Below, piece by piece: positions 1-26,036 of a stretch of DNA of 64,000 bases (within the stretch, counting starts at the first letter, position 1; each line of letters opens with the position of its first letter). The translations under genes and the position numbers were made by a program. The notes beneath the pieces were generated by a model that was not told the origin of the DNA, ran no database searches, and worked only from the letters and a program-made list of their open reading frames with translations. Source of the DNA: Curvibacter sp. GTDB lineage: Bacteria; Pseudomonadota; Gammaproteobacteria; Burkholderiales; Burkholderiaceae_C. The stretch lies in contig JAFAMV010000112.1 in assembly GCA_019233055.1 (NCBI GenBank), positions 24,286-88,285 on the forward strand, read 5' to 3'.

Positions 1-840
1 GCCTGCGACCTGCTCGGCCAGGTGCTCGACGGCCAGGTCAGCGACCTGGAGATCGGGGCCTTCTGCCTGGCCATGCGCATCAAGGGGGAGACCCCGGCGG
101 AGATGGCCGGCTTCCTCGACGCGCTGCATGTCCGGCTGCAGAAACTGCCTCACGCCCCGGGCCTGCCGGTGGTGGTCCTGCCGAGCTACAACGGCGCCCG
201 CAAGCTGCCGGTCCTGACGCCGCTGCTGGCCCTGCTGCTGGCGCGGCGCGGCGGCCGGGTGCTGGTGCACGGCACGCCGACCGAGGACCGGCGCGTCGCA
301 GCGTCGTCGGTGCTGGAGGCCCTGGGAATCCCTACATCGGCCCCTCTGAAGGCCCTGCAGGCAGGCGAAGTGGCCTTCGCGCCCACCGAAACGCTGCTGC
401 CGGGCCTCAAGCGACTGCTCGATGTGCGCCGTGTGGTCGGCCTGCGCAACCCGGCCCACAGCCTGGTCAAGCTGATGAGCCCCTGCGCGGGCCCGAGTGT
501 GCTGGTGAGCAGCTACACCCACCCCGAATATGCGCTGTCGATGGCGGCCACCCTGGCCCTGACAGGCCAGACCGCCCTGCTGCTGCGCGGCACCGAGGGC
601 GAGGTCGTGGCCGACGCCCGCCGCACCCCCGAGATGACGGCCTATCTGGGCGGGCAGGCGCGCACGGCGCAGACCGCCCAGGCCGGCCCCCTGCAGGCCC
701 TGCCCGGGCTGCCGCAGGACATCAGCGCCGAATCGACGGCCCGCTACATCCGACAGGTGATGGCGGGCGAACTTCCCGTGCCTGGCCCGATCGCATGCCA
801 GGTGGACCACATCCTTCAGCTCGCGGAGCAAGCCCGATGA
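1..840 (+). CDS. ybiB: YbiB family DNA-binding protein (TrpD2-like), 5' end missing
   Basis: The frame is open from base 1, so the true start lies upstream of the window and about 280 codons are visible. The sequence SDLEIGAFCLAMRIKGETP near the visible start and the Ala/Leu-rich fold match YbiB/TrpD2, a relative of anthranilate phosphoribosyltransferase (TrpD) that is known to bind nucleic acid non-specifically rather than to act in tryptophan synthesis. The phosphoribosyl-pyrophosphate loop of true TrpD is not evident, which agrees with YbiB. The stop codon overlaps the cobA start in an ATGA arrangement, so the two are co-transcribed. In related bacteria this pair often follows assimilatory nitrate/nitrite reductase genes, and the missing upstream part may hold them; that is inference. 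The family call is firm and the cellular role is uncertain. Confidence 0.88.
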   Translation, partial: ACDLLGQVLDGQVSDLEIGAFCLAMRIKGETPAEMAGFLDALHVRLQKLPHAPGLPVVVLPSYNGARKLPVLTPLLALLLARRGGRVLVHGTPTEDRRVAASSVLEALGIPTSAPLKALQAGEVAFAPTETLLPGLKRLLDVRRVVGLRNPAHSLVKLMSPCAGPSVLVSSYTHPEYALSMAATLALTGQTALLLRGTEGEVVADARRTPEMTAYLGGQARTAQTAQAGPLQALPGLPQDISAESTARYIRQVMAGELPVPGPIACQVDHILQLAEQAR

Positions 841-11387: not shown

Positions 11388-12515
11388 TCAATCGTCGGCG
11401 TAGCGCACGGCGATCGCCCTGAAGTCGTCGGCGATGGCGATGAAGGCGTCGACGATGTCGGGGTCGAAATGCTGGCCACGGCCCTGGACCACGATCTGGC
11501 AGGCCTGTTCATGGCTGAAGGCCGGCTTGTAGACGCGGCGGCTGATCAGGGCGTCGTAGACATCGGCCACCGCCATCAGCCGCGCCGACACCGGGATGGC
11601 GTCGCCGGCCAGGCCCTCGGGATAGCCTGTGCCGTCCCATTTCTCCTGGTGGCTGTAGGCGATCTCCTTCGAGAAGGTCAGGAACTTGACCTTCATGCCC
11701 AGGCGCCGCTCGGCCTCCTCGATGGCATCGCGGCCGATGCGCGGGTGGCGCTTCATGACCTCGAACTCCTCCACCGTCAGCTTGCCCGGCTTGAGCAGGA
11801 TGCTGTCGGGAATGCCGACCTTGCCGATGTCATGCAGCGGCGCCGACTTGTAGAGCAGCTCGATGTTGCGCTCGGTCAGCACCGCCTCGAAGCGGGGATG
11901 GCCCTTGAGCTGTTCGGCCAGGGCTTTCACATAGAGCTGGGTACGGCGGATGTGGTTGCCGGTCTCACTGTCGCGGGTCTCGGCCAGCGAGGCCATGACC
12001 ATGATGGTGACGTCCTGGATGGCCTGGACCTCCAGGGTGCGCAGCAGCACCTCCTGCTGCAGGTAGTCGCTCTTGCTGCGCAGGAAGTCGGCCGTGGCCT
12101 TGAGGGCCAGGTGGGTCTGCACCCGGGCCAGCAGGATCGGCGGGCTGATCGGCTTGCTGATGTAGTCGACCGCGCCGAGTGACAGGCCCAACTCCTCATC
12201 CTCGACCTCCGCGCGGGCCGTCAGGAAGATGACCGGGATGTCGCGGGTGCGCGGGTTCGACTTGAGGCGGCGGCAGACCTCGTGGCCGTCGACGTCGGGC
12301 ATCATCACATCGAGCAGGATCAGGTCCGGCGCCGGGTCCTGGGCCGCGATGCGCAAGGCCTTGTCGCCATGGTTGGCCACCTTCACCCGGTAATGGTCCT
12401 TGAGCAGGGAGCTCATCAGGCTGAGGTTGTCGGCGGTGTCATCGACCACCAGCACGGTGGCGATCGGTTTGTCGATCAGGGCGAGCCTGTCGGGGGCGGG
12501 AGGGGCCAGATCCAT
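11388..12515 (-). CDS. Response regulator with HD-GYP c-di-GMP phosphodiesterase domain
   Basis: This 375-residue protein joins a receiver domain (about 18-135, phospho-acceptor D69 in LILLDV, Lys in SKPIS) to an HD-GYP domain (about 165-360). The metal-site HD pair is H228-D229 in APLHDIGKVGIP, and the signature HQEKWDGTGYPEGL contains the intact GYP at 297-299. HD-GYP proteins hydrolyse c-di-GMP to pGpG or GMP, and here phosphorylation of the receiver should control this. The gene lies 36 bp downstream of the 1602-residue hybrid kinase on the same strand, so that kinase, which ends in an Hpt domain, is the obvious phosphodonor. The partner assignment is inference from position. Confidence 0.93.
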   Translation of the reverse strand: MDLAPPAPDRLALIDKPIATVLVVDDTADNLSLMSSLLKDHYRVKVANHGDKALRIAAQDPAPDLILLDVMMPDVDGHEVCRRLKSNPRTRDIPVIFLTARAEVEDEELGLSLGAVDYISKPISPPILLARVQTHLALKATADFLRSKSDYLQQEVLLRTLEVQAIQDVTIMVMASLAETRDSETGNHIRRTQLYVKALAEQLKGHPRFEAVLTERNIELLYKSAPLHDIGKVGIPDSILLKPGKLTVEEFEVMKRHPRIGRDAIEEAERRLGMKVKFLTFSKEIAYSHQEKWDGTGYPEGLAGDAIPVSARLMAVADVYDALISRRVYKPAFSHEQACQIVVQGRGQHFDPDIVDAFIAIADDFRAIAVRYADD

Positions 12516-12551
12516 CGGACATCTTCCATGCTGAAGGGCCTGCAGCGCTGC

Positions 12552-17360
<4,809 letters not shown>

Positions 17361-17568: not shown

Positions 17569-20500
17569 TCAGGACAACCGCCAGCAGCCATGCGCCTCCC
17601 CGGGATGCGTGGCGTCGAGCGTCGTGCGGTGCAGCGACAGCGACAAGCGCCAGCCGCCGGCCGCTTCGGGTGCCAGCCCGCACTCCAGCCAACCCGCACC
17701 GCCGAAGGCCTGGGTGTCGATGGCGACCGTGCCGGACCCCTCCTCCAGTGCCAGGGTTTCATGCCGCAGCACCTCGGCAGGCACTTCGTCGGCGAACCGC
17801 ATCGGCGCGTACAGGGGCGGACAGGCCAGCGCCCAGGCGCGCAGTCCGGTGACCGCGAAATCCAGCGTCGACCAGGCCGCACACCCCCCATCGCCCCCCA
17901 CCATGACCAGGTTCTCGACCTTGTGGCGAACCAGCAGGCCCAGCAGGCGCCGACGCTCCTGCGGACACCCCTGCCAGCCGTCGATGTCGCGCGGGGCGGG
18001 CACGCCCTGCCCCGCCTGCAGGCCCGGCGCAGGCAGGGCCCCCATCAGCAGGAACTTGGGCCGGGCCCCCACCCTGGTCTGGCTGGCAAGCAGCCACTGT
18101 TCGAGCGCCACCCATTGATCGGGCGACAGCATCGCCGGTTCGGGTGCCAGGCGCCGATGGAGCCGGGTGTTCAGGCGGTAGCAAGGATGGCCGGCCCATT
18201 CGAAGGCCTGGTCAGGGGCCGGCTCGGCGCCCTGCGCAGCGGCGGGGTCGGGCGGGCTCCCCGGCCCATGCGATTGCTGGAAGACCTGGAAGCAGGCCCA
18301 GGCGTTCTCATACAACAACTGCTGCGTCGGCCCGGCGGCCAGCCAGTCGCGGCTCCAGCCCCCGGCGATCTCGTGGGCCCCCATGCCCATCAGCAGCGGC
18401 AACTGGCGCGACACGGCGCGCCAGCCCGGCGAGCCGAAAGCATCACGGTACGGCGGCACGAAGCGCTGGATGGGCGACAGGCTGTCGATCAGGCCGGCGC
18501 TCGGATCGGCCGTCATCTGGTCCCCAAGCATCCAGACGGCCTGGGCCGGCGCCTGCTGCTGACGCCGGGCCAGCGCCTGCAGGCCGGTATCGCGCCAGTC
18601 CAGTTCCAGCGGTGTCAGGCCGGGGTAGCGGCCCGCCACCAGAAAACAGCGCAGGCCCTGCCCGGGAGACGCCCGGTGGGCCTGCCAGACGGCGGGCCGG
18701 ATGCGCAGCCAGGCTTCGCGCAGCGAGCGCAGGCTGCGCTGCCGTCGGGACAGCGTGTGGGGCTGGGCGCCCAGGGCGCAGGCCCGGGCCTGCGCCAACA
18801 GCAGGGCCAGAGGGTGCAGCAGGTCACGGGCCTGGGCCAGGTCCAACGGCCATGCCAGGGCCTGCAGGGCATCGCCCTCCTGCGCCGTGGCGGACAGGTC
18901 CGGCAAGGGACAAGGCGGTGCCGGCGGGACATCGACGCCCCGGCCGGCGGCCCGCGCAGCCTCATGGACATCCCAGCACGACGGTGTGCGCCCTTTCGAG
19001 CGCCGGGCCTCCTGGACGCTGAGGGGCACGCCCCAGGCCTCAGGCCATGGACCGGCGGCCTGCGCACCACCCGCCACCGGCACCGGCACCGACAGGCCGT
19101 CGCTGTACCGATGCAGGCTGACGGCCAGCACATTGGCCGTGCCCTCGAGGTCCGCCGGCCAGCGCAGGTCGGCCAGCGCGTAGCAAAGGCCCAGCGTGAG
19201 CGGTGCGTGCCAGTGAGTTCGCAGGTCCTGCCGGCGCAGGGGCCAGCATTGCACCACGCAATGGCGGCCCACGTGCAGCACGGTCATGGCTGCCACAGGC
19301 TCGTCGGTCTGGCTGCAGTCCACCTCGAGCCAGACCCGCTGGACGATGTCCGCGCCTTCGCGACGCACCCAGCCCGCCAGCGGACCGGTCAGGGGAAGGC
19401 GCGCGCGCAGGCGGTCCTGCCTGGGCCGGGGCTGGGCAGGCGCCTGGAAGGCCTCATCGAAGAACGACAGCACGCTGGGGAAGATGTCACGGGGCGCGTT
19501 CTTGCCGATGGTGCAATCGAAGTGGGCATAGCCGGGCAGCAGCAGGAAGCGGTCGTGGCCCTGCTCGCGCCGGGCACGACCGAAGGCACGGGTCAGGCGG
19601 CGACGGCTCTCGGCCAGGGATTCGGCATCGAACAGCACGTTCTCCTGTCCGTGCATGAGCATCACCGGCATGTCGAGGTAGCGCTGCAGGTGTTCCTGGG
19701 TGGTGTAGACATCCTGGCCGTCGGCATTGACCAGGTGCTCCCCCGACACGCACAGCGCCCCCTGCATGAAGACCCCGAGGTTGGTGCGCCCGAAGTACCG
19801 GTCCAGCTTCTCGTGGGTGACCTCGTGCAGTTGATCGTGCCGGAACAGGCGGCTGAGCAGGCCGGCCATGCGCTTGCAGGTGGTCGAATCGGCCTGCGCA
19901 TGCAACAGGTCATGCTCATGCGGACAGCGCTCGGCGGGCTCGTAGTCGAAGCTGGCGAAGACCTGGTCGAAGGCCGCGTGCAGAGGATCGGCCTGCACCG
20001 TGCCGGCCGAGAACTGCAGATAGTCCAGGCCCAGACCGGACACCAGGGCCGTGGCCACCTGGAGCCGCATCTGCGAAGTGACCGAGCCGACGACGAAAGG
20101 CAGGAACTGCGAGAACAGCACCCCGGCGAGCTTGGAAGCCCCGTCCTCATGCACCAGCCGGCCGCCGAGCAGCGACATGGCCAGCGAGGCCGATCCGACG
20201 CAGTGCGAGAACATGAACACCCGGCTGCCGCCGCCCTGGTGGCCGCTTTCCCGGTCGAGCGTGGCCAGCACATGGTCCACCGCCGCCGGGATTTCGCCGG
20301 CCGCGATGTCGTCCATGCTGCAAAAGCGCGCCGAGGCCCGCAGGAAGGGGCTGACGCGGTACTCGAACAGCCACACGTCCCAGCCCTGCTCGTACAGCAG
20401 CGTCGCCAGGTTTTCAGAACCCAGTTCCTCGGCCACGAACGGCAGGGTGTTCTGGGCGAAGCCATTCATCATGAGGATGGCCCGATACCGCCGGCCCCCT

Positions 20501-23500
20501 TCGGCCGCCAGCACCCGGACCTGGGGCTGGCGGTAGCGCACCAGACCGACCCGGATCATCTCGCCCGGCCCCTCGGCGGCCGGCGACGCGGCGCGCAGGG
20601 GAACGTCCAGGCGCACCGCCGCCTCGGGCACCACCTCCGGACCGTGGGCCGGCTTCAGGCTCGGGTAGCGCTGCCGGCTCAGCTCGAAGACCCCATCGTC
20701 GGGCCCGACGGCCCAGTCCTGCGCCGGCAGCCCGGGACGGTAGTCGGGTTGGCGGAATTCCTGTGACCGGTCCAGCAGCAGGTAGCGCGCCATCAGGGCG
20801 GGGTAGGAGGCGAAGGCCGCCAGGGACTGCATCAGGTCGCCGCCGGGTTTCAGTTGGGGCACCACGCGCCGGATCATCTCCGGCAGGTCCATGGCCAGCC
20901 GACCTTCGGCCAGCGGACGGTCCGGATCGGCACCGTACAGGCACACATCGAGCTGCGTGAGTTGCTCCCAGACGCTACGCCGCCCCAGGGGCGGCCACCC
21001 TCCCTGGCGATACCGCTCCCAGAGCCAGCGCCCCAGCTCCCCCCAGCGGGCCGAGGGGTCCATGAACTTGCGCCCCTGCAACTGCAGCTCACCAGCGCCG
21101 GTGTCGAGCTGCAGCCGGTAGGTGAAGCCACGTGTCGCCGACCCACGCCAGGCCGCCTGGATCGCGGCCCAGGCCAGGGTGCCCCAACCGGCCGCCTCGG
21201 GCGATGGCGCCGGGGCCCGCCGGCGCCGGGCCATCTGGGGCCCCCAGTTGTCGACCAGGTAGCTCAGGAAGACCCGCAGGCTGCGCTCCAGACGCACCGG
21301 CCAGGCGACCCGGCTCGGGTTGAACACCTCGACCGAACCGCCACGGACCGGCCACACCAGCGAGGGCTGTCCAGGCCGGTCAATGACCAGGCGCGAGCGG
21401 GTGAACTGGCTGTCGTCGAGTTCGGGCAGGCCGTTGCCCGGAAACACCGGCGTGCTGTGCGCCGGATCGCCCCAGAGCCGGCCCCAGTCGCGCACATCCA
21501 TCTGCAGGAACAGCGCAGTCGGCAGGTTCGCCGGGCGGGCGGCCTGCGGTTGCGGCAGCCCGGGCAGCCCCTGCAGCGCCCCGGGACGCCAGCTCAGCGG
21601 TCCACGCAGCACCTCGTTGAGAGAGGTGCCGTAGAGGGGCGGCTGCGGCAGGCGCAGCGCCGGCCGCTCCTGGGGTGCCGGCGGCAGCCCGGGCGCGGCC
21701 TGGCCGGCCAGGGCCCCTGCCGAAAGGTCGGCCAGGGCGCAGGCCCGTTCGGCCAGGGCGGTGATGGTCAGCAGGGGGTTGACGCCCAGCGAGGTCGGGA
21801 CGACCGAGCCATCCATCACCCAGAGCCCCTCATGCACCCCGCCGTCGCGCCGGAAGACCTGGCAACGGTCATTGACCACGCCGGCCTCGGGCCGGTCGGC
21901 CATGCGGCAGCCCCCCAGCGGGTGCACCGTGATCCAGCCCGGCGCCTGCGCCGGGCCGCCGAGCAGGCGGGCCACCGCATCCGGCAGCACGCCCGAGGCC
22001 GGATTGGGCAGGAACAGCCCGCCGAGCCGGGCCACGGCGGCCAGTCGACGACGGTGCAGCCCGGGCGCCAGATCGCCCGCCGTCGGAGACCAACGCCAGG
22101 CCAGGCGCTCGCTGGCGCAGCCCAGGCTGGCGCTGCCACCCGAGCCGTCATGCCCCATGCCCAGCATGACCAGGCTGCGCCGGTCGGCCGCCTCGCCCGC
22201 CACCAGGGCATCGGCCGCCCCCCTGGAGCGCCGGCCGAAGGTGGTCAGCTGCGGCAGGACGCCCAGCGTGGTGAGCAACTCGGCCACCAGCGGCTTGAGC
22301 AGGCCGGGGATGCCGCCGTCCTCGGTGACGGTGCTGCGATGCACATCGCCGGCATGGTCGAAATGGATGACACCGGTGATGGTGGGTCCAGGCGGCTCCT
22401 GCGCCCCGGGTCCGGGCGCCCGGGTCTCGTCGAGGCCGAAGCCGTCGACCACCTGAGGCAGGTCGTAGGCAACCGACAAGTCATCGCCATTGGCTGACAG
22501 GCCGTCGCCCAGGGGCCCGGTGTGCAGATCCAGGCCCAGCAGCTGCGAACGCAACAGGATTTCCGGGCTGCCCAGGGCGCCGCAGGCCAGCACCACCTGC
22601 GCACAGCGCAGACGCTGCACATGGCGCTGTGCGGCCAGCGCCGGATCCTGCGCGGCCACCTCGGCCCAGAGCCCTCGCTCCAGCGTGCGCACGACATGCA
22701 CCACCCAGGGGTGCCCGGGATGCTGCGGGTCGGGCTCATGGCCGACCCACAGGCCGGTGACCCCGGTGAACAGGCGCGCCCCGCCGGCACGGGCCCGGGC
22801 CAGGTAGCTTTTGTCCAGGCTCAGCTTGGCGTGGTGCTTGCAGCCCGAGGCACAGTTGCCACAGCCGATGCAGGCCTGCCGGCGCACCCCGTCCTGCGGC
22901 GGGTCGGCGCGGAACTCCATCACCAGGGGCACGTCCTCGACATGCACACGGACGTCGGATTCGCCTGCGGCGGCCGCGGCCCGGGCCAGGCGGTCGAGCA
23001 GATGGCGCCGCCGCGTCTGCTGGGGCACACAGGCCGGCGAGTCCTGCTGCCGGGCGCCGTCCTGGACGCCAAGTCCGTCACGGGCGCGCTCATAGAAGGC
23101 ATCCAGGGCATGGACGTCGCGCAGGACCTCGGGCCAGGCCCCCTGAGCGAACACCCGGGCATCGGGGCGCAGGGCGACCGCCGCGTTGATCAGACTGCCA
23201 CCGCCCAGGCCGTTGCCCACCATGGCGGCCGCCCCCTGGCCGAGCCGGAAGTCGAACAGGGCATCCTCGTGCCCCGAGGCCTTGACCCGGCCGTGGTCCG
23301 CCACCTCGGCCCGGACGAAGCCGGCCGCCTGGCTGAAGTCGGACGGGAAATCGCCGGCCTGGTACTCCTTGCCCCGCTCCAGCAGCCAGACCGACCGGCG
23401 GGCTTCGGTGAAGCGTTGTGCGGCCACCGCCGCGCCATAACCCGAACCGAGCACCAGGCAGTCGGGCCAGGCCTGCTCACCCCGCCCGGCCTGTGCCACC

Positions 23501-23541
23501 AGGGCAAAAAGCGGTTCCGCCGCCTCGGACAACCAGTTCAT
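17569..23541 (-). CDS. Three-part fusion: GMC oxidoreductase, alpha/beta hydrolase, PhoD-like domain
   Basis: A 1990-residue single reading frame. Residues 25-605 are a GMC flavoenzyme of the cholesterol-oxidase-like branch: FAD motif LGSGYGAAVAAQRF (31-44), GNGLGGGSLINAAV, a Cys cluster C224-x2-C227-x2-C230-x3-C234, HPLGGC (540-545) and GVNPLLTITALAERA. Residues about 630-980 hold two related beta-rich repeats seen between these domains in similar fusions. Residues about 985-1365 are an alpha/beta hydrolase with a Cys nucleophile elbow (SHCVGS, C1114), HGQENVLFDAES and GYAHFDC (H1340). Residues about 1615-1990 resemble PhoD-type metallophosphatases (MLGDQMTADPSAG), but DDHE becomes GAHE and SGDVH becomes GGDGG, so the metal site looks degraded. 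GMC-hydrolase fusions are known; the third part is unusual. Substrate unknown, perhaps sterol- or lipid-like. Its start overlaps the upstream GGDEF-EAL gene by 4 bp. Confidence 0.85.
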   Translation of the reverse strand: MNWLSEAAEPLFALVAQAGRGEQAWPDCLVLGSGYGAAVAAQRFTEARRSVWLLERGKEYQAGDFPSDFSQAAGFVRAEVADHGRVKASGHEDALFDFRLGQGAAAMVGNGLGGGSLINAAVALRPDARVFAQGAWPEVLRDVHALDAFYERARDGLGVQDGARQQDSPACVPQQTRRRHLLDRLARAAAAAGESDVRVHVEDVPLVMEFRADPPQDGVRRQACIGCGNCASGCKHHAKLSLDKSYLARARAGGARLFTGVTGLWVGHEPDPQHPGHPWVVHVVRTLERGLWAEVAAQDPALAAQRHVQRLRCAQVVLACGALGSPEILLRSQLLGLDLHTGPLGDGLSANGDDLSVAYDLPQVVDGFGLDETRAPGPGAQEPPGPTITGVIHFDHAGDVHRSTVTEDGGIPGLLKPLVAELLTTLGVLPQLTTFGRRSRGAADALVAGEAADRRSLVMLGMGHDGSGGSASLGCASERLAWRWSPTAGDLAPGLHRRRLAAVARLGGLFLPNPASGVLPDAVARLLGGPAQAPGWITVHPLGGCRMADRPEAGVVNDRCQVFRRDGGVHEGLWVMDGSVVPTSLGVNPLLTITALAERACALADLSAGALAGQAAPGLPPAPQERPALRLPQPPLYGTSLNEVLRGPLSWRPGALQGLPGLPQPQAARPANLPTALFLQMDVRDWGRLWGDPAHSTPVFPGNGLPELDDSQFTRSRLVIDRPGQPSLVWPVRGGSVEVFNPSRVAWPVRLERSLRVFLSYLVDNWGPQMARRRRAPAPSPEAAGWGTLAWAAIQAAWRGSATRGFTYRLQLDTGAGELQLQGRKFMDPSARWGELGRWLWERYRQGGWPPLGRRSVWEQLTQLDVCLYGADPDRPLAEGRLAMDLPEMIRRVVPQLKPGGDLMQSLAAFASYPALMARYLLLDRSQEFRQPDYRPGLPAQDWAVGPDDGVFELSRQRYPSLKPAHGPEVVPEAAVRLDVPLRAASPAAEGPGEMIRVGLVRYRQPQVRVLAAEGGRRYRAILMMNGFAQNTLPFVAEELGSENLATLLYEQGWDVWLFEYRVSPFLRASARFCSMDDIAAGEIPAAVDHVLATLDRESGHQGGGSRVFMFSHCVGSASLAMSLLGGRLVHEDGASKLAGVLFSQFLPFVVGSVTSQMRLQVATALVSGLGLDYLQFSAGTVQADPLHAAFDQVFASFDYEPAERCPHEHDLLHAQADSTTCKRMAGLLSRLFRHDQLHEVTHEKLDRYFGRTNLGVFMQGALCVSGEHLVNADGQDVYTTQEHLQRYLDMPVMLMHGQENVLFDAESLAESRRRLTRAFGRARREQGHDRFLLLPGYAHFDCTIGKNAPRDIFPSVLSFFDEAFQAPAQPRPRQDRLRARLPLTGPLAGWVRREGADIVQRVWLEVDCSQTDEPVAAMTVLHVGRHCVVQCWPLRRQDLRTHWHAPLTLGLCYALADLRWPADLEGTANVLAVSLHRYSDGLSVPVPVAGGAQAAGPWPEAWGVPLSVQEARRSKGRTPSCWDVHEAARAAGRGVDVPPAPPCPLPDLSATAQEGDALQALAWPLDLAQARDLLHPLALLLAQARACALGAQPHTLSRRQRSLRSLREAWLRIRPAVWQAHRASPGQGLRCFLVAGRYPGLTPLELDWRDTGLQALARRQQQAPAQAVWMLGDQMTADPSAGLIDSLSPIQRFVPPYRDAFGSPGWRAVSRQLPLLMGMGAHEIAGGWSRDWLAAGPTQQLLYENAWACFQVFQQSHGPGSPPDPAAAQGAEPAPDQAFEWAGHPCYRLNTRLHRRLAPEPAMLSPDQWVALEQWLLASQTRVGARPKFLLMGALPAPGLQAGQGVPAPRDIDGWQGCPQERRRLLGLLVRHKVENLVMVGGDGGCAAWSTLDFAVTGLRAWALACPPLYAPMRFADEVPAEVLRHETLALEEGSGTVAIDTQAFGGAGWLECGLAPEAAGGWRLSLSLHRTTLDATHPGEAHGCWRLS

Positions 23542-26036
23542 GTGTGATCTCCTCGATCAGCGGCCCCGACCGGTTCGGCCTCTGCGGCCGGCCGTGGCGG
23601 GACAAAGGGAATGTGGGCGGCCACCCAGGCAGCCAACTGAGCGGCCGGCATCGGGCGTGCCGCAAACCAGCCTTGGGCCTGGTCGCAGTGCAGGGCCTGC
23701 AACATGGCCCATTCCTGCGCCGTCTCGGCGCCTTCGGCCACCACCACCAGGCCCAGCCGATGGCCCATGGCGATGATCGATTCGAGCAGCGACTGGGCAT
23801 CCGGGCTGCGCTGCACCTCGCGCACGAAGGCCCGATCGACCTTCAGCTCCGAGACCGGCATCTTCTGCAGATAGGACAGCGAGGAATAGCCGGTGCCGAA
23901 ATCGTCGATCGACAGACTGAAGCCGGCCCCGCGCAACTCGTGCATCACCGCCAGGGCCGTCTGCGCGTCGCGCATGGCCGCGCTTTCGGTGATCTCCAAG
24001 CAGAGATCGGCCGGATCGGCCCCCAGCCGCTCGGCCAGGGCGCGCACCGAGGCCGAGAACAGCGGGTCGGACATGTCGTGGGTGGACAGGTTGACCGAGA
24101 TCTTCAGCGGCTGCCCCGCCGCGCGCCACTGCACCGTGGCCTCCAGCGCCTGGCCCAGCATCCAGTGGGTGAGCTCGGTGATGCGCCCGGTCTTCTCGGC
24201 AAAGGGCACGAATTCGGACGGCGGCACCATGCCACGCTCCGGGTGCTGCCAGCGCACCAGGGCCTCGGCACCGCTGAGCGTCCCGTCGGACAGACGGATC
24301 TTGGGCTGCAGGAACATCCGCAGCTCGTTGTGCGTCACCGCGCGCTTGAGCTGGGACAGCAGCCCCAGGTCGGCCATGCGGTTAACCTCCATCGAGGCCT
24401 GGTAGCTGAGCCAGGGCCGGTGCAGCGCACGGGCCGTCTCCAGGGCCACCTCGGCATCGCGGATCAACTCGGCCATGGACTGTCCGCCGCCATGCAGCGA
24501 ACTGCCCGCCACCACCGACAGGTCCACGCTCTGCCCCCTGACCTCGGCCGCCGCCACAAAGGCCTGCTGCAGACCCTGCTGCAGTTGGACGGCCGGCACC
24601 GGCGTCTGGAACAGCAGCGCGAACTGGTCGGCATGCATGCGGGCCAGTTGGAACGGGGCGAAACGCCCCGCCAGCGAGGCCAGGCGACGTGCCGCCTCGC
24701 AGAGCAGCTGATCGCCCAGCTCGGTGCCCAGCACCTCGTTGATCGCATGGAAGCGCTCGATGTTGACCACCAGGACCTGAGGCGAGGCACCCCCGTCCAC
24801 CCATTGCTGCCCCTGGCTGCGCAGCCCTTCGCGGTTGAGCCAGCCGGTCAGGCTGTCGTACATGAGCAGGCGCGACGACTCGCGCAAGGCCCGCAGGGTG
24901 CGGTCCGCCAGGCCATAGCAGAACACCGCCGGCAGGACCAGGGTGCGCAGCAGGTCGAAATCCGATCCGATCGCCAGTTCGATGGGCACCGGCTGACGCA
25001 GCACCACCGCATAGAAAAGGAACACCAGCCAATAGACCGTGATCGGCACCATGCCCACCAGCAGCACGCCGCTGGCCCGCTCGCCGGCACGCCAGCCGTT
25101 CCAGTTTCCCGCCAGGCCGACCACGAAGTGCAAGGGCAGCAGCACATAGACGACCGGATTGACCCATTGCGGCGCCAGCCATTCGAGCGGTATCAGGGCC
25201 ATGAAGGCCCAGCAGATCAGGACCGCCGCCACCGCCATGCGCGGGCTGTGCAGGCGGAAGCGGCCGAAACGCAGGTACAGCCATGCCGACAGCCCCGAGA
25301 CCGCAAACTGCAGCAAGGCGGCATTCAGCCACAGCGGCGCCAGCGGCGGCCAGACGAAACCCAGGCCGCTCTTGGCCAGGTGCGTCATGGCCTGGACCGT
25401 GGCATAGAGGGCGTAGATGCCGTAGTCGGGATCGCGCAGCGCGAACAGGAAGAACAGCGCCAGGAAGGAGGTGGTGACCAGAAAGGCCACTGCGGCCATG
25501 TTGATCAGATCGGCCTGGCCGTCCGCCAGATCCAGCCGCGCCGGGTCGACCAGCGCGATGCGCACATGGCGATCGATGGCCGGGATGTCGAGGCTGCCCG
25601 CCACCGGGGCGAGCCGGGCATACAAGGGCCAGGTCACCGCCTCGCCCAGCACGAAGGCCGCCTTGCGCCCGGTGACCCAAGCGTGGTCCTGGACACCGAG
25701 TCGGGATGCCGACCCGAGCGGCCGCCCCTGGGCATCGAAGACGCCGATGTCCACCCGCTGCATGTGCAGATCGCCGAACACCAGCCAGGACGGCGCAAGC
25801 GGTGTCGCCTCGGCGGTCGCCCGTCCCAGGCGCACCCAACAGACCTCATTGCGCCGCTGCACCGGTACCCCGTCGCCGTCTGCCCGCCGCCAGGCATCGG
25901 CGGCCAGGGCGCCCAGGGACTGTGACGGCGGACCGCATTGGTAGTCCAGGGCCAGCAAAGGCGGCTGCGCGCCGGCCACCCGCCCCCAAAGGCAGGTCAG
26001 AAACACGACCAGCAGTCCCACGCGGCGCCAGATCAC
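23538..26036 (-). CDS. 7TMR-DISM membrane protein with degenerate GGDEF and intact EAL domain
   Basis: This 832-residue protein has a signal peptide (1-23) and an extracellular DISM-type domain (about 25-175). Seven or so membrane segments follow (about 177-375), then a GGDEF-fold domain (about 390-545) and an EAL domain (about 555-810). The GGDEF site reads MHADQ (467-471), so cyclase activity should be lost. EAL residues are kept: EALVRW (591-596), NLSTHD, EITES, IDDFGTGYSSL and KVDRAFV. A c-di-GMP phosphodiesterase controlled by an external ligand is the best reading. The start is a GTG at 26036 with GGGAGAGG just upstream; GTG 26040 lies in another frame. The 3' end overlaps the GMC fusion start (ATGA), making a two-gene operon. 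The upstream 138 bp hold no clear -10/-35 pair. Confidence 0.9.
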   Translation of the reverse strand: MIWRRVGLLVVFLTCLWGRVAGAQPPLLALDYQCGPPSQSLGALAADAWRRADGDGVPVQRRNEVCWVRLGRATAEATPLAPSWLVFGDLHMQRVDIGVFDAQGRPLGSASRLGVQDHAWVTGRKAAFVLGEAVTWPLYARLAPVAGSLDIPAIDRHVRIALVDPARLDLADGQADLINMAAVAFLVTTSFLALFFLFALRDPDYGIYALYATVQAMTHLAKSGLGFVWPPLAPLWLNAALLQFAVSGLSAWLYLRFGRFRLHSPRMAVAAVLICWAFMALIPLEWLAPQWVNPVVYVLLPLHFVVGLAGNWNGWRAGERASGVLLVGMVPITVYWLVFLFYAVVLRQPVPIELAIGSDFDLLRTLVLPAVFCYGLADRTLRALRESSRLLMYDSLTGWLNREGLRSQGQQWVDGGASPQVLVVNIERFHAINEVLGTELGDQLLCEAARRLASLAGRFAPFQLARMHADQFALLFQTPVPAVQLQQGLQQAFVAAAEVRGQSVDLSVVAGSSLHGGGQSMAELIRDAEVALETARALHRPWLSYQASMEVNRMADLGLLSQLKRAVTHNELRMFLQPKIRLSDGTLSGAEALVRWQHPERGMVPPSEFVPFAEKTGRITELTHWMLGQALEATVQWRAAGQPLKISVNLSTHDMSDPLFSASVRALAERLGADPADLCLEITESAAMRDAQTALAVMHELRGAGFSLSIDDFGTGYSSLSYLQKMPVSELKVDRAFVREVQRSPDAQSLLESIIAMGHRLGLVVVAEGAETAQEWAMLQALHCDQAQGWFAARPMPAAQLAAWVAAHIPFVPPRPAAEAEPVGAADRGDHT

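Follow-up and report, generated by a model that had tools for sequence, protein, structure and literature searches.

Predicted loss of the PhoD active site in a Curvibacter member of a family of flavoenzyme–hydrolase–PhoD fusions

What becomes of an enzyme domain that loses most of its active site while remaining joined to two other enzymes? The question is raised by a gene in a stretch of 64,000 nucleotides from Curvibacter sp. (GenBank assembly GCA_019233055.1, contig JAFAMV010000112.1, positions 24,286 to 88,285), referred to here as the window. The gene lies on the minus strand at 17569–23541 and consists of a single open frame of 1990 residues starting with an ATG at 23541. A previous sequence-only reading, which gave no strand, had described one frame joining three enzyme parts, and the open frame, the Pfam GMC matches and the hydrolase and PhoD matches bear this out. 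The protein is a fusion of a cholesterol-oxidase-like flavoprotein, a lipase-like hydrolase with a cysteine elbow and a PhoD part that is predicted to be dead as a phosphatase; this last part has probably been retained to serve the two other parts, themselves likely active in lipid processing, as a binding or scaffold domain.

Organization of the fusion protein

A protein search yielded 157 matches, the best 120 of which were considered: 91 proteins longer than 1800 residues were aligned with the window protein (92 sequences in the main alignment), and 29 shorter ones were left out. Domain boundaries are our own, placed on this alignment.

17569–23541, minus strand: whole three-part gene, defined by its open frame and translation; relatives are similar in length.
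21712–23484, minus strand: GMC flavoenzyme, cholesterol-oxidase-like, residues ~20–610, with His540 and Asn588 kept (Pfam and PDB matches).
22840–22872, minus strand: four-cysteine motif C224-x2-C227-x2-C230-x3-C234 within the GMC part, marked by column conservation; a possible iron–sulfur site.
20542–21624, minus strand: middle domain, residues ~640–1000, without a Pfam match, confidently modelled; it marks the fused type.
19402–20499, minus strand: alpha/beta hydrolase, acid-lipase-like, residues ~1015–1380, with Cys1114 and His1340 (profile and fold matches).
20200–20202, minus strand: Cys1114, the nucleophile-elbow residue, at the column where gastric lipase has its elbow Ser.
19042–19374, minus strand: beta-rich segment ahead of PhoD, residues ~1390–1500, likely the Ig-like domain of PhoD (strand pattern; 2yeq fold match starting at model residue 1).
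17587–18669, minus strand: PhoD-fold domain with lost active site, residues ~1625–1985 (model with 2yeq as top match; three of ten active-site residues kept).
18358–18381, minus strand: GAHEIAGG, residues 1721–1728, replacing DDHExxDN, with loss of calcium-site ligands (alignment of 92 sequences; mapping by the available parts of PMC4223295 and PMC5768637).
18631–18633, minus strand: Gly1637 replacing the iron-ligating Cys (alignment).
18511–18513, minus strand: Thr1677 replacing the iron-ligating Tyr (alignment).
17884–17892, minus strand: DGG, residues 1884–1886, replacing DYH, with the His lost and the Asp kept (alignment).

Pfam families score above cut-off in the GMC part, with E-values of 2.5e-14 for GMC_oxred_C and 3e-10 for GMC_oxred_N. 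The PhoD family PF09423 attains 23.5 bits against a cut-off of 27 in the whole protein (E-value 3.6e-5, residues 1800–1893) and 25.4 bits in the genome search, or 28.7 bits if neighbouring matches are included.

Loss of the PhoD active site

In the available text of PMC4223295, Bacillus subtilis PhoD binds one iron and two calcium ions, and single losses at several of the active-site positions abolish its activity; the accessible part of PMC5768637 gives ten active-site residues of a Ramlibacter PhoD in comparison with the B. subtilis enzyme. These residues were mapped on the alignment via the motifs GDxxY, DDHExxNN and GDxH and a near-invariant upstream Cys, and correspond to positions 1637, 1674, 1677, 1721, 1722, 1723, 1727, 1728, 1884 and 1886. 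At these places the residues of the window protein are G D T G A H G G D G, with only three of the ten kept. The sequence-only reading had pointed to DDHE changed to GAHE and to GGDGG; both changes are present (residues 1721–1724 and 1882–1886), and the loss is wider, extending to seven active-site residues.

This state is exceptional among the 92 aligned sequences: all ten residues are found in 75, nine in 10, eight in 5, and three only in P0001, the window protein, and P0002. The 15 sequences with eight or nine residues depart at 1727 or 1728, and P0083 additionally at 1721. Asp1884 is present in 92 of 92, while His1886, Asp1721 and Asp1722 occur in all except P0001 and P0002 (P0083 has Asn at 1721). 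A profile-based realignment to which genomic loci were added, some of them the same proteins as in the main set, gave a similar picture across 145 segments: ten residues in 118, nine in 17, eight in 6, three in P0001 and P0002, and 2 segments cut short. P0002 is 99% identical to the window protein, differing at 16 residues, and has the same altered site; it is shown as the window's own cluster. A search with residues 1590–1990 alone listed 12 proteins, all among the earlier matches, and disclosed no degenerate site beyond P0002. In each of the two protein searches, scoring was limited to the candidates with the most words in common (7986 and 7982), and other degenerate copies may exist beyond those scored.

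The substitutions in the PhoD part are far from chance: 6 of 25 near-invariant positions are changed, whereas the hydrolase has 1 such change among 25 and the GMC part 4 among 94. Structure prediction, which the earlier reading had proposed as a check, recovered a PhoD fold with a predicted local distance difference test (pLDDT) value of 84.4 and a predicted template modelling (pTM) score of 0.87, the top structural match being B. subtilis PhoD (2yeq). The fold is thus predicted to be kept despite the lost site. Judged from the aligned sequences, the lost phosphatase site is a trait of the window lineage and the fusion is a trait of the family.

The same genome also encodes an ordinary, separate PhoD (G000 contig C164, L120:2237–3931, minus strand) in which the Cys and the GDxxY, DDHExxND and GDxH residues are present.

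Distribution of fused and split versions

The earlier reading took the added third domain to be unusual, a view that does not survive comparison with relatives. Among the matches listed, the same three-part layout is found in 90 further proteins besides P0001 and P0002, all with 8–10 of the ten residues, and precomputed PhoD, GMC_N and GMC_C domains are recorded in all 91 relatives above 1800 residues except P0002. The domain order over the full length of this fusion family matches in the window protein. The notion that the fusion is special to the window was accordingly rejected. Record names of the relatives include 'alkaline phosphatase D family protein', 'cholesterol oxidase' and similar. 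Homologues are therefore many, but characterised ones did not emerge: a literature search judged mostly by title found no description of a GMC–hydrolase–PhoD fusion (the available part of PMC4899797 concerns unrelated proteins), and searches for PhoD with pseudoenzyme and for 7TMR-DISM with lipase gave nothing on point.

A survey of three-domain genes in named genomes, also suggested by the sequence-only reading, covered 79 loci and found GMC, hydrolase and PhoD in one frame in 38. The record titles of the fused loci point to Rhodoferax, Curvibacter, Pseudacidovorax, Variovorax, Ramlibacter, other Burkholderiales and Halieaceae, and also, as metagenome bins, to Pseudomonadaceae or Pseudomonas. 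Split versions exist as well. Nine loci (L036, L038, L042, L046, L049, L050, L059, L062, L080) have a GMC-hydrolase gene with a separate PhoD gene of more than 200 bits nearby, and in two (L065, L083) the nearby PhoD match is weak, at 54–62 bits; the three are separate neighbours in L048, and in G015, a genome of the same family, a kinase, a GMC-hydrolase and a PhoD are neighbouring genes. Since GMC-hydrolase and PhoD are separate neighbours in several genomes outside the main fused group (L048, L049, L062, L080 and others), the fusion likely joins an older gene pair. In 60 related genomes, the window's own included, the protein was matched in 18, at full length only in the window's own. Three of eight other genomes of the genus (G002, G003, G006) contain divergent GMC and hydrolase matches, with no PhoD beside them in the stretches inspected of G002 and G006.

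The hydrolase and flavoenzyme parts

No Pfam family was matched by residues 616–1404 of the window protein; Abhydrolase_1 was matched by 18 of 40 aligned pieces of this region (the window's and those of 39 relatives). A profile of this piece matches gastric lipase (1hlg, E-value 1.2e-14) and lysosomal acid lipase, and the predicted hydrolase model matches the fold of 1k8q (E-value 1.5e-12). In a joint model of the middle domain and the hydrolase, the structure matches displayed are alpha/beta hydrolases. Cys1114, within FSHCVGS, aligns with the Ser of the gastric lipase elbow, in agreement with the cysteine elbow proposed earlier, and is Cys in 99 of 99 scored segments (5 of 104 gapped). This residue is a family rule, and the idea that it is special to the window was discarded. 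His1340 aligns, in a weak second alignment, with the His of the NHLDF stretch of gastric lipase and is His in 97 of 97 segments (7 of 104 gapped).

Residue 1301 (19639–19641, minus strand) is Asn in 95 of 98 segments and stands at about the expected place of the acid, a position judged by eye.

The hydrolase seems to have a Cys-His-Asn set, an unusual combination for this fold if correct. With a thiol as nucleophile, acyl transfer or a thioester step is suggested more than a plain lipase.

The GMC part is conserved throughout the family. The His540 column is H in 196 and the Asn588 column N in 194 of 199 aligned segments, and the four-cysteine columns are C in 194–197 of 199. An iron–sulfur cluster at the four-cysteine motif is possible, Fer4 matches in the fusion being below cut-off only; a cluster there would make the GMC enzyme an electron-passing dehydrogenase and not an oxidase. 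Given this motif, the electron acceptor may differ from that of class I cholesterol oxidases. Iron–sulfur clusters are known in GMC sugar dehydrogenases; a literature search on iron–sulfur GMC dehydrogenases found no paper. Against the NCBIfam cholesterol oxidase model the fusion scores 147.7 bits, below the equivalog cut-off of 850.

Signalling neighbours

The gene upstream of the fusion encodes a likely membrane sensor, as indicated by its 7TMR-DISM, GGDEF and EAL domains.

23538–26036, minus strand: upstream partner of 832 residues with 7TMR-DISM, a degenerate GGDEF (MHADQF) and EAL (Pfam).

Its TGA overlaps the ATG of the fusion as ATGA, and translational coupling of the two genes is likely. 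MHADQF stands at the GGDEF motif in this protein and in all nine orthologues and the EAL motifs are kept, so that a cyclic di-GMP phosphodiesterase is predicted and not a cyclase. The orthologues, 48–52% identical, are located upstream of the fusion in L005, L006, L007, L009, L010, L017, L021, L022 and L026; the 4-bp overlap occurs in none of these nine loci within the stretch inspected after the EAL stop. Most of the remaining fused-type loci have a hybrid histidine kinase as neighbour instead, with HisKA, HATPase and receiver domains in all of a set of 22.

More than 1.5 kb of upstream sequence is available for 39 fused-type loci, recognised by their middle domain, and an EAL gene or a kinase occurs within 2.5 kb in 37 of them: 26 kinases and 7 EAL genes are upstream on the same strand, one kinase is upstream on the opposite strand and three kinases are downstream. 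The other 30 loci have such a neighbour in 7, namely the fused-type genes cut by contig ends in L022, L026, L037 and L076, the PhoD-bearing genes with the middle undetected in L054 and L074, and the two-domain gene in L081. The neighbour profiles were derived from genes of this kind and the loci themselves are related, so that the counts are not independent; two-domain and split loci serve as control. A response regulator of the LuxR type, resembling that of L059, is found somewhere in 31 loci, L059 included, often adjoining the kinase. P0024 (a fusion) and P0140 (a 7TMR-DISM joined to a kinase) share the longest-contig figure 340529, a hint that either output may be joined to the sensor.

Downstream of the fusion, after a gap of 208 bp, the region 11388–17360 (minus strand) encodes a 1602-residue hybrid histidine kinase carrying PAS and Hpt, and also a response regulator that bears an HD domain (HD_5). 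A promoter scan returned 0 sites against 0.7 expected, and terminator-like sites, 7 against 5.2, are near chance; no claim is based on either.

Possible roles of the PhoD part

In relatives with an intact site, a phosphate or phosphodiester head group would be removed by the PhoD part, an acyl group would then be cleaved off or transferred by the cysteine hydrolase, and the alcohol set free would be oxidised by the GMC part. The window lineage would have given up the phosphate step or left it to another protein. The fusion is likely co-translated with the membrane EAL protein encoded upstream, and its dose would then depend on the same signal as that protein. A lipid or sterol-ester substrate, as envisaged by the sequence-only reading, fits the relatives (cholesterol oxidase and acid lipases); the substrate itself was not demonstrated by the analysis. 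The PhoD part of the window lineage lacks seven of ten active-site residues and is predicted to have no phosphatase activity left; with the modelled fold kept, a non-catalytic role is likely, in line with the binding or structural function first suggested. A more elaborate scheme, rather doubtful at present, is a signal-coupled lipid machine: a single chain would unite an oxidase, a cysteine enzyme that hydrolyses or transfers acyl groups, and a phosphodiesterase, and its gene would share an operon with a membrane sensor having an EAL or histidine-kinase output. The phosphodiesterase of the window lineage would have turned into a domain without catalysis that binds a ligand or docks and thereby tunes both other enzymes, perhaps by holding the once-cut phospholipid or by docking to the EAL sensor.

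Several observations weigh against a retained binding or scaffold domain. The PhoD branch measures 0.895 compared with 0.24–0.41, and the branches of the GMC and middle parts are also somewhat longer. Eight of 48 PhoD positions outside the site conserved at 80% are changed in the window (1–2 in the four nearest sisters, at most 5 in 11 other tabulated proteins), which fits a domain on its way out. The alignment rows behind the structure model mostly have intact sites and may bias it towards the family fold; a single metal could still be bound by the remaining D1674, H1723 and D1884; and two fused-type loci (L011, L018) have no EAL or kinase neighbour within 2.5 kb. The acceleration, which is domain-wide, bears on the view that the PhoD part is a decaying remnant without a role, kept only through its joining to two useful enzymes. 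Its mean identity to an outgroup is 37%, against 43–45% for the four nearest sisters; of the 16 residues at which P0001 and P0002 differ, 5 belong to residues 1625–1985 and none to the hydrolase; and the genome has an ordinary PhoD elsewhere. We nevertheless regard a mere remnant as unlikely: some 360 residues persist without a stop or frame shift after a long branch, the codon-position guanine-plus-cytosine pattern resembles that of the other parts, the fold is predicted intact and 16 of 17 near-invariant non-catalytic positions are kept.

Two further descriptions of the changes were set aside. Equal decay across the whole protein was rejected, as the hydrolase branch (0.264) is within the range of the sisters (0.17–0.27), and confinement of the changes to active-site residues is unsupported, near-site and distant PhoD positions having changed too. 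Continued catalysis by the PhoD part, through a rearranged or single-metal site on D1674, H1723 and D1884, is improbable. Three active-site residues, two of them acidic, would be available for it, and the Pfam score just exceeds the cut-off with neighbouring matches included; however, the Cys and Tyr that ligate iron have been lost along with the calcium ligands, at positions several of which tolerate no single loss in B. subtilis PhoD (available text of PMC4223295). A sequencing or assembly error as the source of the changed motifs is scarcely credible even in a draft genome of 264 contigs, for the seven substitutions affect scattered codons in an open frame and the same site recurs in P0002 in spite of its 16 differences.

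Significance and comparison with known systems

The window protein and its sisters, 55–57% identical and with an intact site, form a matched pair for the study of enzyme-domain death inside a multi-enzyme chain. The family itself is a large one of 2000-residue enzymes, apparently undescribed in the literature searched, that combines a near-universal cysteine hydrolase with a four-cysteine flavoprotein, and the signalling gene adjoining it in most loci makes substrate and regulation testable together.

Among the closest systems are the uncharacterised GMC, alpha/beta hydrolase and PhoD fusions, which resemble the window protein in length, parts, cysteine elbow and four-cysteine motif. Beyond the nearest sisters, many are 32–53% identical over nearly the whole length, and in the most distant the BLAST alignment covers about one third (among the matches listed); they differ in a PhoD site that keeps 8–10 of ten residues, against three in the window. 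Gastric and lysosomal acid lipases (1hlg, 1k8q, 6v7n) are the best profile and fold matches of the hydrolase part and share its alpha/beta hydrolase fold, but use a Ser nucleophile where the fusion family has Cys and, seemingly, Asn1301 at the usual acid position. Polyhydroxyalkanoate (PHA) synthase PhaC (9knj) likewise has a cysteine elbow in an alpha/beta hydrolase and is in the fold-match list; its profile match (E-value 0.013) is too weak for a claim of membership. Class I cholesterol oxidases (1coy, 4u2l) have the GMC fold, the His of HPLGGC and the C-terminal Asn in common with the fusion, but the four-cysteine motif is absent at the equivalent place in the solved structure 4u2l. GAP50 of Plasmodium (3tgh) differs from the window protein in being eukaryotic and without fusion to enzymes. 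B. subtilis PhoD (2yeq, PF09423) is a separate protein, whereas the PhoD of the window is the C-terminal part of a fusion and has lost seven of its ten active-site residues.

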